Origin: Roseobacter sinensis
GTDB lineage: Bacteria > Pseudomonadota > Alphaproteobacteria > Rhodobacterales > Rhodobacteraceae
Length of the DNA stretch: 64,000 nt
Direction: 5' to 3'
Assembly (NCBI RefSeq): GCF_025755255.1
Contig: NZ_JALIEB010000001.1
Span: 434,001-498,000, forward strand
A program made the position numbers and the translations under genes. Below, one piece after another: positions 18,099 to 60,737 of the stretch. The notes under the pieces are model-generated. The model worked only from the letters and a program-made list of their open reading frames with translations. It did not search any database and was not told the origin of the DNA. Every line of letters begins with the position of its first letter. The first letter of the stretch is position 1.

Positions 18099-18126
18099 GT
18101 TTACTGGGCTCCAGCCTCTTTTCTTT

Positions 18127-18154
18127 GCCCGGCCGGTCGGCCGGGCGGGACATC
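18127..18154 (+). repeat. Palindromic repeat GCCCGGCCGGTC type, copy 1
   Basis: The inverted GCCCGGC and GCCGGGC arms sit around a short centre and are followed by GGGAC. It lies between the convergent peroxiredoxin and Lrp genes and could aid termination of both. A near-identical sequence is found on the minus strand at 22807-22833. Confidence 0.6.
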
Positions 18155-18205
18155 TAAGCGCGGCGTTCAAAAAAAGCACATTGCGAGAGCGCTTCGAAGC
18201 GGCCT

Positions 18206-22736: not shown

Positions 22737-22806
22737 GGGGCGGAGGTAGGTCGGGATGTGGCGCGCGCCATCGCATCTCGTTTTGATTTGTGCGCACCGC
22801 CTTGTC

Positions 22807-22861
22807 ACGTCCCGCCCGGCTGACCGGCCGGGCATCGCCCGACCTCCCCCCGGAGGGCGAT
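22807..22861 (-). repeat. Palindromic repeat GCCCGGCCGGTC type, copy 2, with an adjacent hairpin
   Basis: On the minus strand 22807-22833 reads GCCCGGCCGGTC-A-GCCGGGC-GGGACGT, matching the repeat at 18127 in 25 of 27 positions. Directly beside it, ATCGCCC (22834-22840) and GGGCGAT (22855-22861) form another perfect 7-bp stem with inner CTCC/GGAG pairing. This fills the 227-bp gap between the ASCH and K+ channel genes. Confidence 0.6.
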
Positions 22862-50553: not shown

Positions 50554-51785
50554 TTGAAATTGCGGGACAAACCTACGTTTTGAGCGATCCGGTGGTGATC
50601 GCGGCGCTGTTGGGTGGGGCGGTGATCCTGCTCATGCTTCTGCTCCTGATCATGGCTGTCCGTGCGGCGGGACGCAGTGCCGCGCTGGCAGCACCCCTGG
50701 CCCAGCAGATCGGCGCTTTGGGGCAACATGTCCAGCAACTCGGCGCCGGGCAGGAGCAGCTGCGCGGCGGTCTACAGACAGTTTCGGACACCCAGGCGAC
50801 GGCGCAGGCGCAGGTCATCCAGACGGTCGAGGCGCGCCTCGCCACCGTTCAGCAACAGATGCAAGACCGGCTGGCCGACAACGCGCTGCGCTCGGCCCGG
50901 TCGCTGGCCGAGATGCAGGAACGCATGAAAGAGACGCTGCACGGCTCGTCGAAACAGACCACCACGAGCCTCACGCAGCTGCAGGAGCGGTTGGCGGCAA
51001 TCGACAAGGCGCAGGACAATATCACCAAGCTGTCCGGCGATGTGCTGAGCCTGCAGGACATCCTCAGCAACAAGCAAACGCGGGGTGCCTTCGGCGAGAT
51101 CCAGCTGCGCGACATCCTCTCGAAAGCGCTGCCCGCAGACAGCTACGCTTGGCAGCCGACCTTGAGCAATGGCAAGCGCGCTGACTGCCTCATTCACCTG
51201 CCCAATCCGCCGGGATCCATTGTAATTGATAGCAAGTTCCCGTTGGAGGCCTATGAGGCCCTGCGGGTCGCAGAGACCGACCAGGCCTTGAAAGAGGCGG
51301 TGGCGAAGATGAAGACGGCGGTAACCAAGCACATCACCGATATTGCGGAGAAATACATCATCGACGGCGAAACGGCCGATGGTGCGCTCATGTTTCTGCC
51401 GTCCGAGGCGGTTTATGCCGAACTGCACGCAAACTTCCCCGATCTCGTGCGCAAGGGCTTTGACGCACGGGTCTGGATCGTCAGCCCGACCACCTGCATG
51501 GCGACGCTGAACACCATGCGCGCGATCCTGAAGGATGCGCGGATGCGTGAGCAGGCGGGGGCCATCCGCAAGACGCTGCGGCAGCTGCACCGGGACGTGG
51601 AGCTGGTGGTGGAGCGGGTCGGCAAGCTTGACACTCACTTCGCGCAGGCGCGGGCCGATCTCGACGGCATTGGAACTGCCGCCGAGCGGGCAGGGAAGAG
51701 GGCGGCCCGGCTGGATAGCTTCGATTTTGCGGAGCTGTCGCCCGAGGAAGAAGCCGCCGTCACACTGAGCCGCCCCAAGCCCTGA
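50550..51785 (+). CDS. rmuC: DNA recombination protein RmuC family
   Basis: A 411-residue membrane-anchored protein with an N-terminal hydrophobic segment ([23 protein letters not shown], about residues 14-36), a long coiled-coil (about 45-165) and the RmuC nuclease-fold core: [27 protein letters not shown] and [15 protein letters not shown]. Proteins of this family limit sequence inversions at short inverted repeats. It is translationally coupled to mutL, so two genome-stability genes are made together. Confidence 0.92.
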
Positions 51786-51849
51786 GGCTTCTTCTTCCGC
51801 ACAACCGGAAGCCACGCCAGGGCTATCCGCAAACAGCGTCGATCTGGTG

Positions 51850-51901
51850 CCGCCCGGCAAAGCCGGGCAGCGCCCGCCCTCTTCGATGGGGGAAGGGCGC
51901 T
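51850..51901. repeat. Double-hairpin repeat between rmuC and uxuA
   Basis: GCCCGGC-AAA-GCCGGGC (51852-51868) is followed at once by AGCGCCC (51869-51875) and GGGCGCT (51895-51901), a second stem with inner CTTC/GAAG pairing. It sits between two convergent genes and could terminate both. It shares the 15-mer GCCGGGCAGCGCCCG (51862-51876) with the element inside the KDG kinase gene. Confidence 0.7.
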
Positions 51902-57615: not shown

Positions 57616-58823
57616 CACCGCGCATCCTCCATATTGGCGTAGGCAACTTCGCGCGGGCGCATCTGGCGGATTACACGCAGGATGCAGGCGGCTGGCGCAT
57701 CACCGGTGTGAGCCTGCGGTCGGGCAAGGTGCGCGACGGGCTGCGCGCGCAAGGCTATAGCTACGGGCTCGCGGTGCAGGGCCAAGGTATCAAGCAGATC
57801 GATGTATTGGATGAGGTGCTGGTGGCCCCGGAGGCGCCGGGCGCAGTGCTGGCGCAGATCGCCGATCCGGATGTGCATATCATCTCTGTCACTGTGACCG
57901 AGAAGGGCTATCACCTGACGTCGGAGAACACGCTCGATCTGGACGACCCCCTGATCGCCCAGGATCTCGCGGCTGTGGGGCCGCGCACGGTGATCGGCTT
58001 CCTCGCGCATGGGCTGGCGGCCCGTCAAACACCTGTGACTGTGCTGAGCTGCGACAACAGGGCGAACAACGGCGACGTGCTGAAGGCTGCGGTGGTGACC
58101 TTTTCAGCCGAGGCCCGGCTGGACATGGGCCAGGTGCAGGCGCGCTTTCCCAACTGCATGGTCGATCGGATCACACCCGCCACAACCGATGCGCTGCGGG
58201 CGGAGACGGGAGATGCGATGGTGGTCCCGACCGAGCCTTTCCGGGAGTGGGTGATCGAGGATCACTTTGCCGGGCCGCGGCCCGACTGGCCGGATGTGGT
58301 GTTCACGGATGAGGTGGCGCCGCATGAGATGCGCAAACTGCGGATGCTGAACGGGGCGCATTCGATGTTGGCCTATGCAGGAACACTAGCGGGGCACACA
58401 TATGTGCATGAGGCGATGGCCGATCCCGCGTTGCGCGCGCAGGCGCGGGCGCTGATGGATGAAGTGGCGCGAACCCTCTCGCCCGACATGCAAAAGATCG
58501 CGCCGTCCTACGCGGATGCGCTGGTGGCGCGGTTCGATAACCCGCACATCAACCACAGCCTGCGCCAGATCGCGATGGATGGCACCCAGAAGCTGCCTTA
58601 TCGCATGGTCGACAGCCTGCGCGCGTTGCTTGGCGAGGCGCCCGCTTTGGCGGCCGGCATCCGCGCGTGGCTTGCGTTCTGCCGGGCTGAGGTTGCCGCG
58701 GGCCGCCCGCCGGAGGATCCGAAGGCCGAAGCGATTGTGCAGATCGTGGACGCGGGCGGGACCGAGGCACAGCTGCTCTCGCTGATCGGGGCAGAGGACC
58801 TCGCGCGCTCTATTCTGGAATGA
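57612..58823 (+). CDS. uxuB: D-mannonate oxidoreductase (fructuronate reductase), mannitol dehydrogenase family
   Basis: A 403-residue polyol-specific long-chain dehydrogenase. HIGVGNFARAH (about residues 6-16) is the family N-terminal motif. SVTVTEKGYHL, SCDNRANNG, VDRITPAT and LRMLNGAHSMLAYAG (with catalytic Lys/Asn/His) follow. GTG at 57612 overlaps the uxaC stop. Between UxaC and UxuA it would reduce fructuronate to mannonate; tagaturonate is the alternative substrate. It overlaps the convergent kinase gene by 14 bp at the 3' end. Confidence 0.9.
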   Translation: MTPRILHIGVGNFARAHLADYTQDAGGWRITGVSLRSGKVRDGLRAQGYSYGLAVQGQGIKQIDVLDEVLVAPEAPGAVLAQIADPDVHIISVTVTEKGYHLTSENTLDLDDPLIAQDLAAVGPRTVIGFLAHGLAARQTPVTVLSCDNRANNGDVLKAAVVTFSAEARLDMGQVQARFPNCMVDRITPATTDALRAETGDAMVVPTEPFREWVIEDHFAGPRPDWPDVVFTDEVAPHEMRKLRMLNGAHSMLAYAGTLAGHTYVHEAMADPALRAQARALMDEVARTLSPDMQKIAPSYADALVARFDNPHINHSLRQIAMDGTQKLPYRMVDSLRALLGEAPALAAGIRAWLAFCRAEVAAGRPPEDPKAEAIVQIVDAGGTEAQLLSLIGAEDLARSILE

Positions 58824-59859
58824 TCGCGCCCCGGTGTTGGACGACACGGGCGGCACAGGCGTGGCCCGCCATGAGGGCCTCGGCCTGCGACTGGCCGGTG
58901 AGCAACGCAGCAAGGTAGCCGCCGTTGAAGCTGTCTCCGGCGGCGGTGGTGTCGACGACCGTTGCCGCAGGCGGATAGGTCTGATCGACCGGCTCACCCA
59001 GCGAGAGCGGCCCGGCGGCCCCCCGTTTCAGCGCGCCGATGCCGGCGTAGGCCTGCACGCGAGCGACGACTTGTGCCTCGGTTTCATTGAAGAGCGCCAT
59101 TTCATCGTCGACGGAGGGCAGGGCGATGTCGGCGCGGGCCCAGAGAGCGCGGGTGATATCCTGCGCGGTGGCTTGGTCTTCCCAGAGCCGGGGGCGGTAG
59201 TTGCTGTCATAGACCAGCGTCTGCGGCGCGTCCTTCAGCCAGTCGATCAGGGCAAGGCGTACGGGCTGCGACAGGATCGCCATCGAGATGCCGGAGAGGT
59301 AGAGGACGTCGTAGGGCTCCAGCACGGAGAAGTCGAAGCCGCACCCGACCTGGAAAAGGTCCCGCGCGGCGGCGGCGCTGCGCCAGTAGGTGAAGGAGCG
59401 CTCGCCGTCTTCGGTTGTGGTGATCGCGTAGAGGCCGGGGGATTTGCCGGGGATCGTGCGGATGGCGCCGGTGCCGATGCCTTGCGCGGCGATGAAGTCG
59501 CGGATCTGGCCCGAAAAGGGATCATCGCCGAGGCAGGTGACATAGTCGACTTGGAGAGCGCCGGGCGGCTCGCCCCCAACGTTTGTACCTTGCGCTGAGG
59601 GCTGCGTCCGCCCGCGTTTTGCCGCAGGCAAACCTTCGGTTTGACGGGAAGCGGACGGGCGCTGCCCGGCGGTGCTCACCGGGCGAGACATCTCTGCGGT
59701 ATGCGCCAGATTTTTGAACCGATGTTCTGTCTCCGTTGCGCAGCGCTTCAGATAAATTGCGGTGTTCAGCGTGTCGCCTGCCACCCCGACCTTGGCCGTG
59801 TCGCCTTGCATGGAGAGTTCGATCATGGCTTCGCCGATGCAGGCCACGCGGAGGGTCAT
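58810..59859 (-). CDS. kdgK: 2-keto-3-deoxygluconate kinase with an in-frame insert
   Basis: A 349-residue PfkB/ribokinase-fold kinase that phosphorylates KDG. The N-terminal CIGEAMIELSMQGD and GVAGDTLNTAIYLKR, the GLYAITTTEDGERSFTYWRS substrate loop and the C-terminal ATP/anion-hole motif DTTAAGDSFNGG are normal. About 61 residues between IYLKR and LQVDYVTCLGDD are not family-like: basic, low-complexity, with PSASRQTEGLPAAKRGRT. Without it the protein would be the usual size of about 290-300. Start at 59859 follows AAGGGAA and overlaps the EamA stop. Whether the insert is tolerated or inactivating cannot be read from sequence. Confidence 0.88.
   Translation of the reverse strand: MTLRVACIGEAMIELSMQGDTAKVGVAGDTLNTAIYLKRCATETEHRFKNLAHTAEMSRPVSTAGQRPSASRQTEGLPAAKRGRTQPSAQGTNVGGEPPGALQVDYVTCLGDDPFSGQIRDFIAAQGIGTGAIRTIPGKSPGLYAITTTEDGERSFTYWRSAAAARDLFQVGCGFDFSVLEPYDVLYLSGISMAILSQPVRLALIDWLKDAPQTLVYDSNYRPRLWEDQATAQDITRALWARADIALPSVDDEMALFNETEAQVVARVQAYAGIGALKRGAAGPLSLGEPVDQTYPPAATVVDTTAAGDSFNGGYLAALLTGQSQAEALMAGHACAARVVQHRGAIIPE
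59560..59742 (-). repeat. REP-like palindromic element inserted in frame in kdgK
   Basis: Multi-hairpin DNA inside the kinase gene. CGCCCGG and CCGGGCAGCGCCCG on the minus strand give one stem; GTCCGC / GCGGAC give a second around an inner AAACC-GAA-GGTTT stem. It shares the 15-mer GCCGGGCAGCGCCCG with the intergenic element at 51850-51901. The true ends within this interval are uncertain; the interval spans 61 codons with no stop. Confidence 0.7.
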
Positions 59860-60737
59860 CGCTGTTCCCTTTTCCAGATGATGAGGCCCGAGACCACAAT
59901 GATCAGCGCACCGAGAACTGTGCCGAGATCGGGCAGGTGGTCGAAGACCAGGTAGCTCAGGATCGTGAGGTAGATCATGAAGGAGTAGGTGTAGGGCATC
60001 AGCGTGTTGGCCGAGCCGAAGCGATGTGCGTTGGTGAGCAGCTGGTGCCCGCCCCAGCCGAAGACGCCGAGGCCGATGAGCAGCGCCCACTGCAGCGGGT
60101 TCGCGGGCCACTGCCAGCTCCAGATCGCGAGCGGCAGGAGGATCGCGGTGCCGAGCGCGCCCAGGTAAACCTGCATCGTCTCGGTGGCGACCACGCCCGC
60201 CAGCCTGCGCGTCATGATGGAATAGAGCGCGAGGCTGAAAGCGTTGAAGAGCGCCAGCAGCATGGCCCAGTGGAACTCGGCGCCGAAGGGGCGGATGACG
60301 ACCAGAACCCCGGCGAACCCCATCAGGATCGCGAACCAGCGCCAGGGGCCGATCTGCTCGTTCAGGAAATGCTGTGAGAGAAAACAGACGATCACCGGGC
60401 TGGAGAACATGATGGCCGAGATCACTGTGAGCGGCAGGAAATTCAGGGCGTAGAAATTCGACACGGTGGCGGTGATCAACAACAGCGCGCGGGTGATGAC
60501 CTGACCCGGATGCCCGGTGTGCAGCCGGTCGCGGGTGAGCCCGCCGCGGGCGATCACCGCGACGGAGATCACGAAATGGCCGAAGTAGCGCATGAAGGCG
60601 AGCTGGAACGCTGCAAAGCCTACCAGCGCCAGCCATTTGGCGCTGGTGTCCACGATGGAAAAGAGCAGCCACGCGCCGAGCATGAGCAGGATGCCGAAGC
60701 GCGGGCGATCCTCGATCAGTCCGGCGGCGACCGCCAT
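59856..60737 (-). CDS. EamA/DMT-family transporter
   Basis: A 293-residue inner-membrane protein with ten predicted membrane segments in two EamA repeats (about residues 15-140 and 155-285). FSIVDTSAKWLAL and the mid-protein TVISAIMFSSPVIVCFLS are typical of the RhaT-like drug/metabolite transporter group. It overlaps kdgK by ATGA and starts one base past the GarR-like stop. Placement in a uronate operon suggests movement of a sugar acid or related metabolite; direction and substrate are unknown. Confidence 0.88.
   Translation of the reverse strand: MAVAAGLIEDRPRFGILLMLGAWLLFSIVDTSAKWLALVGFAAFQLAFMRYFGHFVISVAVIARGGLTRDRLHTGHPGQVITRALLLITATVSNFYALNFLPLTVISAIMFSSPVIVCFLSQHFLNEQIGPWRWFAILMGFAGVLVVIRPFGAEFHWAMLLALFNAFSLALYSIMTRRLAGVVATETMQVYLGALGTAILLPLAIWSWQWPANPLQWALLIGLGVFGWGGHQLLTNAHRFGSANTLMPYTYSFMIYLTILSYLVFDHLPDLGTVLGALIIVVSGLIIWKREQR

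Follow-up and report, generated by a model that had tools for sequence, protein, structure and literature searches.

The kdgK gene of the source genome contains an in-frame copy of a palindromic element that otherwise lies mostly between genes, usually near their 3′ ends. This in-frame insertion of a gene-end palindrome is real, it is tolerated by a kinase that is under selection, and it has two parallels in the genus Roseobacter. A REP-like gene-end palindrome, together with some flanking DNA, very probably entered a tolerant loop of kdgK and was retained there. Comparisons made at the level of sequence establish the identity of the segment as a repeat, the short form of the site in 17 of 19 genomes, the maintenance of the reading frame despite a length difference of 54 nt between the two filled sites, and the two further in-frame insertions.

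The insert in kdgK and its repeat family

The kdgK product, whose nearest solved structures are 8iwl, 3lhx and 4e69, is encoded on the minus strand of the window (the whole 64,000-nucleotide stretch of DNA that was analysed). The 3′ end of the gene overlaps that of its convergent neighbour by 14 bp (window 58810-58823). The extra sequence sits between IYLKR and LQVDYVTCLGDD and is in frame and open. The preliminary description had reported here a stop-free segment of 183 nt (61 residues); the place and open frame were correct, but three of those codons also occur in the empty site, and the net gain relative to the closest empty ortholog (genome G011) is 174 nt, or 58 codons. The features of the locus, and the two intergenic copies of the repeat in the window, are as follows.

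58810..59859, minus strand: KDG kinase gene kdgK (2-keto-3-deoxygluconate kinase), PfkB family; reading frame intact
59560..59742, minus strand: inserted region in kdgK; ends uncertain by a few codons
59692..59742, minus strand: 5′ flank of the insert, no recognisable repeat; shorter in R. cerasinus
59652..59691, minus strand: match to covariance model R1 (hairpin 1 and start of the long stem); this copy belongs to the R1 training set
59664..59684, minus strand: hairpin 1 of the insert, GCCCGGTGAGCACCGCCGGGC
59651..59663, minus strand: left arm of the long stem, AGCGCCCGTCCGC
59615..59646, minus strand: nested inner palindrome, CGTCAAACCGAAGGTTTGCCTGCGGCAAAACG; similar modules occur in the loops of other outer elements
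59596..59614, minus strand: right arm of the long stem and CCCTCA end
59560..59595, minus strand: 3′ flank of the insert, no recognisable repeat; aligns with the R. cerasinus 3′ flank
51845..51880, plus strand: intergenic copy with convergent genes on either side; source of the 15-mer match
22807..22845, plus strand: second intergenic copy in the window, ATCGCCCGACCTCC-arm subfamily; right arm degenerate

The insert had been proposed to be a copy of a dispersed palindromic repeat, and this was borne out by its best other match in its own genome (84% identity, 82 query bases, E = 2.6e-17) and by the 15-mer GCCGGGCAGCGCCCG that it has in common with the intergenic copy at 51845-51880. Searching the insert against other genomes gave matches at E ≤ 1e-4 in at least 16 of 99 genomes, its own included, so other copies do exist. 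The strong folding that had been described was likewise recovered, with RNA folding of the minus strand at 59550-59755 giving −92.5 kcal/mol (z = −3.27), a value reached by none of 200 shuffles. The palindromes are preceded by approximately 51 nt and followed by 36 nt of non-repeat DNA belonging to the insert, and no origin for these flanks was traced in a search of the source genome. A terminator scan of 58500-60200 returned one site, versus a shuffle mean of 0.8.

The repeat is a composite palindrome made up of hairpin 1 (GCCCGGYGG-CACCGCCGGGC) and, after it, a long stem in which a left arm, AGCGCCCG(N)CC, and a right arm, GG(N)CGGGCGCTGCCCTCA, flank a variable loop; a second palindrome may nest in that loop (GTCAAACCGAAGGTTTGCCTGCGGCAAAAC in the kdgK copy). 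The arms of the long stem pair at 10 or more of 11 positions in 35 of 99 copies, a count biased towards pairing by the choice of the right arm as the best match. Hairpin 1 and the start of the long stem were aligned from 23 copies to give the covariance model R1; as the kdgK and SURF1 copies are in its training set, their own R1 scores are not independent evidence. Similar inner modules recur in other outer elements, which therefore look nested, as if, to judge from these sequences, smaller palindromes had entered the loops of larger elements.

Several variants of this architecture were observed. A subfamily of 13 copies (L092, L130-L134, L137, L139, L148, L158, L179, L189 and L202) has in common hairpin 1 and the left arm TCGCCCGACCTCC, with small changes to the arm in L179 and L202. 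A right arm near AGGTCGGGCGATGCCCTCA is kept in 11 of the 13, the exceptions being L132 and the window copy L130 (22807-22960), while the approximately 60 bases separating the arms are weakly conserved and of similar length; on these features the subfamily may represent a small RNA or a mobile unit of its own. At window 18126-18173, with convergent genes on either side, lies a hairpin GCCCGGCCGGTCGGCCGGGC with a GGGACATCT end, which corresponds to hairpin 1 without the long stem and is inverted relative to 22787-22834. Loci L006, L065, L079 and L086 carry different palindromes, with outer stems resembling CTGAGACA...TGTCTCAG and a similar inner AAACC module.

All 19 Roseobacter genomes compared encode kdgK, and the insert is found in two of them, the source genome (G000) and Roseobacter cerasinus AI77 (G014). 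Alignment with related KDG kinases showed the remaining 17 genus members to have a short site (approximately KRxAPxLxVDY, with variants in G002, G015 and G017); the segment is thus not carried by all close orthologs, in keeping with the earlier view that it interrupts an otherwise normal kinase. The site motif was readable in 60 of 72 named kinase loci, with 27-32 residues in 59 and 68 in R. cerasinus. The R. cerasinus insert is 54 nt shorter than that of the source genome, has the same hairpin core and an alignable 3′ flank, and the two look homologous in a DNA alignment that took in 6 of the 10 kdgK loci sought (the others were missed by the motif finder). The common core and flank point to one insertion followed by indels, with the frame kept in both species.

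The three nearest species (G000, G014 and G011) are nearly equidistant, and concatenations of 12 and of 16 genes pair them differently; a species tree was consequently dropped as a means of dating the gain. Informative sites within kdgK favour G014 with G011 (28 sites, versus 18 for G000 with G014 and 17 for G000 with G011), so a single gain requires loss in G011, recombination or lineage sorting. The insertion is probably older than the split between R. cerasinus and the source strain. We infer movement of the element from its presence and absence, and the insert may have been built up by repeated small insertions. The kdgK, SURF1 and oxidoreductase sequences were inspected by eye for the marks of a MITE (terminal inverted repeats and target-site duplications), and no clean duplication was seen.

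Location of the repeat and its copies in genes

R1 matched at least 34 places in the source genome at E ≤ 0.1 (30 of them distinct), and at E ≤ 0.01 at least 41 in G011, 29 in G009 and 26 in G014, while each of the remaining 15 genus members had from 0 to 11 matches at E ≤ 0.1 (lower bounds). At E ≤ 1e-5, R1 matched at least 103 of 248 genomes chosen to represent each genus in the family once. The four copy-rich Roseobacter genomes (G000 at E ≤ 0.1; G011, G009 and G014 at E ≤ 0.01) yielded at least 125 distinct copies (30 in G000 and 95 in the others), excluding four G000 matches and one G009 match that are the opposite strand of another match. The context of each copy was read over approximately 3 kb with genes called by a codon-score caller trained on the window, on which the in-gene calls depend.

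Of these copies, 121 are intergenic, with 75 between convergent genes, 45 between tandem genes and 1 between divergent genes, and 4 lie in genes. Being short, dispersed, palindromic and so placed, the element has the features of REPs in the broad sense and, on sequence grounds, is REP-like by location and form. Convergent gaps account for 75 of the 121 intergenic copies versus 11 of 81 background gaps of at least 40 bp (p = 7e-35), and at convergent sites the hairpin 1 side lies a median of 37 nt from the facing stop codon. Tandem copies run in the same orientation as their genes in 16 cases and the opposite in 29 (p = 0.07). Among the matches listed from 18 other genomes, 60 copies comprised 16 convergent, 38 tandem, 2 divergent and 3 unplaced copies and 1 within an ORF, near the C-terminus and in a frame other than that of the Roseobacter in-gene copies; among those listed from further genomes of the family, 40 more comprised 15 convergent, 20 tandem, 2 divergent and 3 unplaced copies, with none in an ORF. 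As tandem sites outnumber convergent ones in these genomes, it is in the four Roseobacter genomes rich in copies that the excess of convergent sites is most marked.

The convergent excess and the proximity of hairpin 1 to the facing stop codon would also be expected if the palindromes were mainly bidirectional terminators selected at convergent ends, with kdgK having captured one by illegitimate recombination of intergenic DNA and no transposition being involved. This explanation, to which the non-repeat flanks within the kdgK insert lend some support, is quite possible, though we consider it short of probable. No T tract follows hairpin 1 (23 aligned copies) or the CCCTCA end (copies inspected), copy number ranges from 0 to 47 within the genus at E ≤ 0.1 (lower bounds), and tandem sites are the commoner kind in other genomes. 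In addition, neither termination nor recombination predicts in-gene events in the same frame.

Some copy sites, matched on both flanks, are common to several genomes: at least 7 of 28 G000 copies with G011, at least 9 of 28 with G014 (including kdgK) and at least 5 of 28 with G009, all lower bounds drawn from 99 loci. The gap at 51785/51927, examined as a possible intergenic empty site, measures 41 bp in G002, G015 and G007, with no element, but in G000, G014 and G011 it holds 141, 240 and 217 bp of unlike sequence, so that no clean duplication is apparent. Loci L370 (G011) and L373 (G009), downstream of the gene orthologous to that ending at 51785, contain several copies of another short repeat, GTCGGTATCAC, where palindromes are present in G000 and G014. 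One copy (L002) had no match among phages and matched 8 plasmid records, all from Leisingera; in the two annotated Leisingera plasmids examined it lies between convergent genes for AraC-type and GlxA-type regulators.

The 4 in-gene copies represent three events, in kdgK (two species), SURF1 and an indolepyruvate oxidoreductase. SURF1 of G000 has 27 extra residues that are absent from 5 aligned orthologs (the alignment covered 6 of 19 loci, the others being missed by the motif finder); in the other 13 genus genomes the match starts only at residue 79-85, which is consistent with an empty site without showing one. The oxidoreductase of G011 contains an insert at a position where seven close orthologs (G014, G000, G007, G015, G002, G005 and G006) give two matching pieces 0-12 nt apart. 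The G014 protein was read across this site and has no insert, the orthologs of G002 and G005 have a stop codon within the match, and the DNA alignment covered 2 of 5 loci, with the others missed by the motif finder.

All three events have the same orientation and the same frame, which encodes the peptide AGQR. Among the 84 usable copies (of 99), any given one of the six frames stays open over 100 nt in 46-59, so stop codons alone do not force the AGQR frame, and the chance of three equal frames and orientations is approximately (1/6)^2 = 0.028 if frames are equally likely. With three events, a frame preference is suggestive only. The shared frame and orientation could nevertheless indicate a selfish, protein-compatible element, analogous to RPEs, that enters genes with a preferred frame and orientation. 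We regard this as rather unlikely, as there are only three such events against 121 of 125 copies lying between genes, and in-ORF copies number 0 among 26 weaker copies and 1 among the 100 copies listed from other genomes. The proposal in the preliminary description of a repeat able to colonise coding sequence is upheld as to kdgK, SURF1 and the oxidoreductase, but does not describe a mainly intergenic family. We tentatively raise the doubtful idea that in free-living roseobacters a family of gene-end palindromes repeatedly becomes peptide in a preferred orientation and frame, with a soluble AGQR core, which would make coding palindromes a recurrent and convergent path by which proteins evolve beyond the Rickettsiales.

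The kinase with its insert

Outside the insert, the dN/dS ratio of the kinase is 0.10 between G000 and G014 and 0.12 between G000 and G011, values which, at the sequence level, demonstrate purifying selection. Within the insert the ratio is 0.60 over 42 codons, in a species pair with dS of approximately 0.65. An AlphaFold model built from 37 of 38 aligned sequences (L276, with a stop in its stretch, was excluded) keeps the kinase fold with a mean pLDDT of 87.7. Helix 1 runs on into the insert as far as residue 58, pLDDT falls below 50 at residues 72-78 and 80-96, and the next strand starts from residue 103, where the only Pfam match of the protein (PfkB) also begins, behind the insert. The model thus leaves most of the insert unstructured, in agreement with the loop location suggested earlier. 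As the conserved GDTLN motif is at the opposite end of helix 1, the insert would be expected to face away from the active site, and it is presumably surface-exposed. The insert peptide would accordingly be a disordered, mostly neutral surface loop, and no use for it is indicated.

It is improbable that the insert has been recruited, with its peptide or an mRNA hairpin regulating the kinase or its expression. The frame has been kept in two species at this dS, the insert ratio is below 1 and the RNA fold is strong, all of which recruitment would explain; against it, only 42 codons can be compared, insert lengths differ by 54 nt, 17 of 19 genus members lack the segment and most of it is predicted to be unstructured. 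Removal of the segment from the kinase product as an intein, intron or translational bypass element might be considered for an in-frame and strongly folded insert but is highly improbable, as it is too short for an intein, contains no Pfam domain and belongs to a family of predominantly intergenic copies, and as no Rfam family reached the cut-off anywhere in the window.

Under the favoured explanation of a REP-like palindrome retained in a tolerant loop, the composite element would have entered kdgK accompanied by about 35-50 nt of flanking sequence at either end, at a point following the helix 1 codons. Copies that disrupted a reading frame or a protein would have been purged, whereas the kdgK copy would have persisted because it left both frame and function intact. 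Where they lie at the 3′ ends of genes, the hairpins may act in termination or mRNA end protection.

Comparison with known palindromic repeats

Literature searches, mainly outside subscription journals, turned up no account either of the repeat or of palindromes within Roseobacter genes, and the words Rhodobacter and Roseobacter are absent from the main text of PMC12306157. E. litoralis and S. alaskensis also belong to the Alphaproteobacteria but not to Rickettsia. Intragenic REPs are reported in many bacteria, these two included (PMC3733652). The likeness to the RPEs of Rickettsia drawn in the preliminary description holds for behaviour only, and in-gene palindromes had already been described beyond Rickettsia (PMC3733652).

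The CGTC REPs described by Di Nocera et al. (2013) are mostly alphaproteobacterial hairpins with a stem of 8-9 bp and a loop of 4-5, located between convergent or tandem genes and in some cases within genes, and have no dedicated transposase (PMC3733652). Hairpin 1 of the Roseobacter element is similar in having 8 pairs and a loop of 4 (structure assigned to the 23 aligned copies). In contrast, the words CGTC, TGTC or CCTC, counted at one offset only (model positions 2-5, two bases before the stem), occur in 29 of 99 Roseobacter copies, the stem starts with GCCCGG in 23 of 23 aligned copies and so lacks A-T pairs at positions 1 and 2, the tail is AGC in 22 of these and ATC in one rather than CCA-like, and there is a second stem that is long and often nested. 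GTAG REPs and REPINs resemble the element as composite units and dispersed palindromes near gene 3′ ends, but GTAG is found in 0 of the 23 aligned copies. On the features tested (tag, stem start, tail and lack of GTAG), the element belongs to neither the CGTC nor the GTAG REPs.

A role for a RAYT as the mover was not supported, as Y1 transposases do not track the repeat. In a search of 10 genomes, the Y1 transposase family PF01797 had no match in G000, G011 or G009 and one partial match in G014, whereas 10 matches were found in G004, a genus member without a copy at E ≤ 0.1 among the places scored. Three of these ten (L256, L258-L266) are equal in score, perhaps reflecting a recent expansion. 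The Roseobacter repeat offers a way to ask how elements of this sort move in the absence of a RAYT. Because short and filled sites occur in closely related species, the group also provides a system beyond the Rickettsiales where in-frame palindromes can be tested as neutral, harmful or useful. As the intragenic insert is tied to a repeat usually found near gene 3′ ends, one hairpin can be studied both within a gene and at its usual place.

The closest parallels in behaviour are the RPEs (RPE-1 to -3, RPE-4, -6 and -7, and extended forms), which are likewise dispersed palindromes located in frame, in unrelated genes and at solvent-exposed places (PMC3767692, PMC10969869). The extended Rickettsia forms reach past the typical repeat, as the flanks of the kdgK insert do (PMC3767692). 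However, Rickettsia belongs to another alphaproteobacterial order, and genes housed close to half of the RPEs first reported in R. conorii (PMC10969869), versus 4 of 125 Roseobacter copies, in which the RPE-like in-frame location is represented by three events. As intragenic REPs and RPEs have already been described, the Roseobacter case is a variant of that kind.
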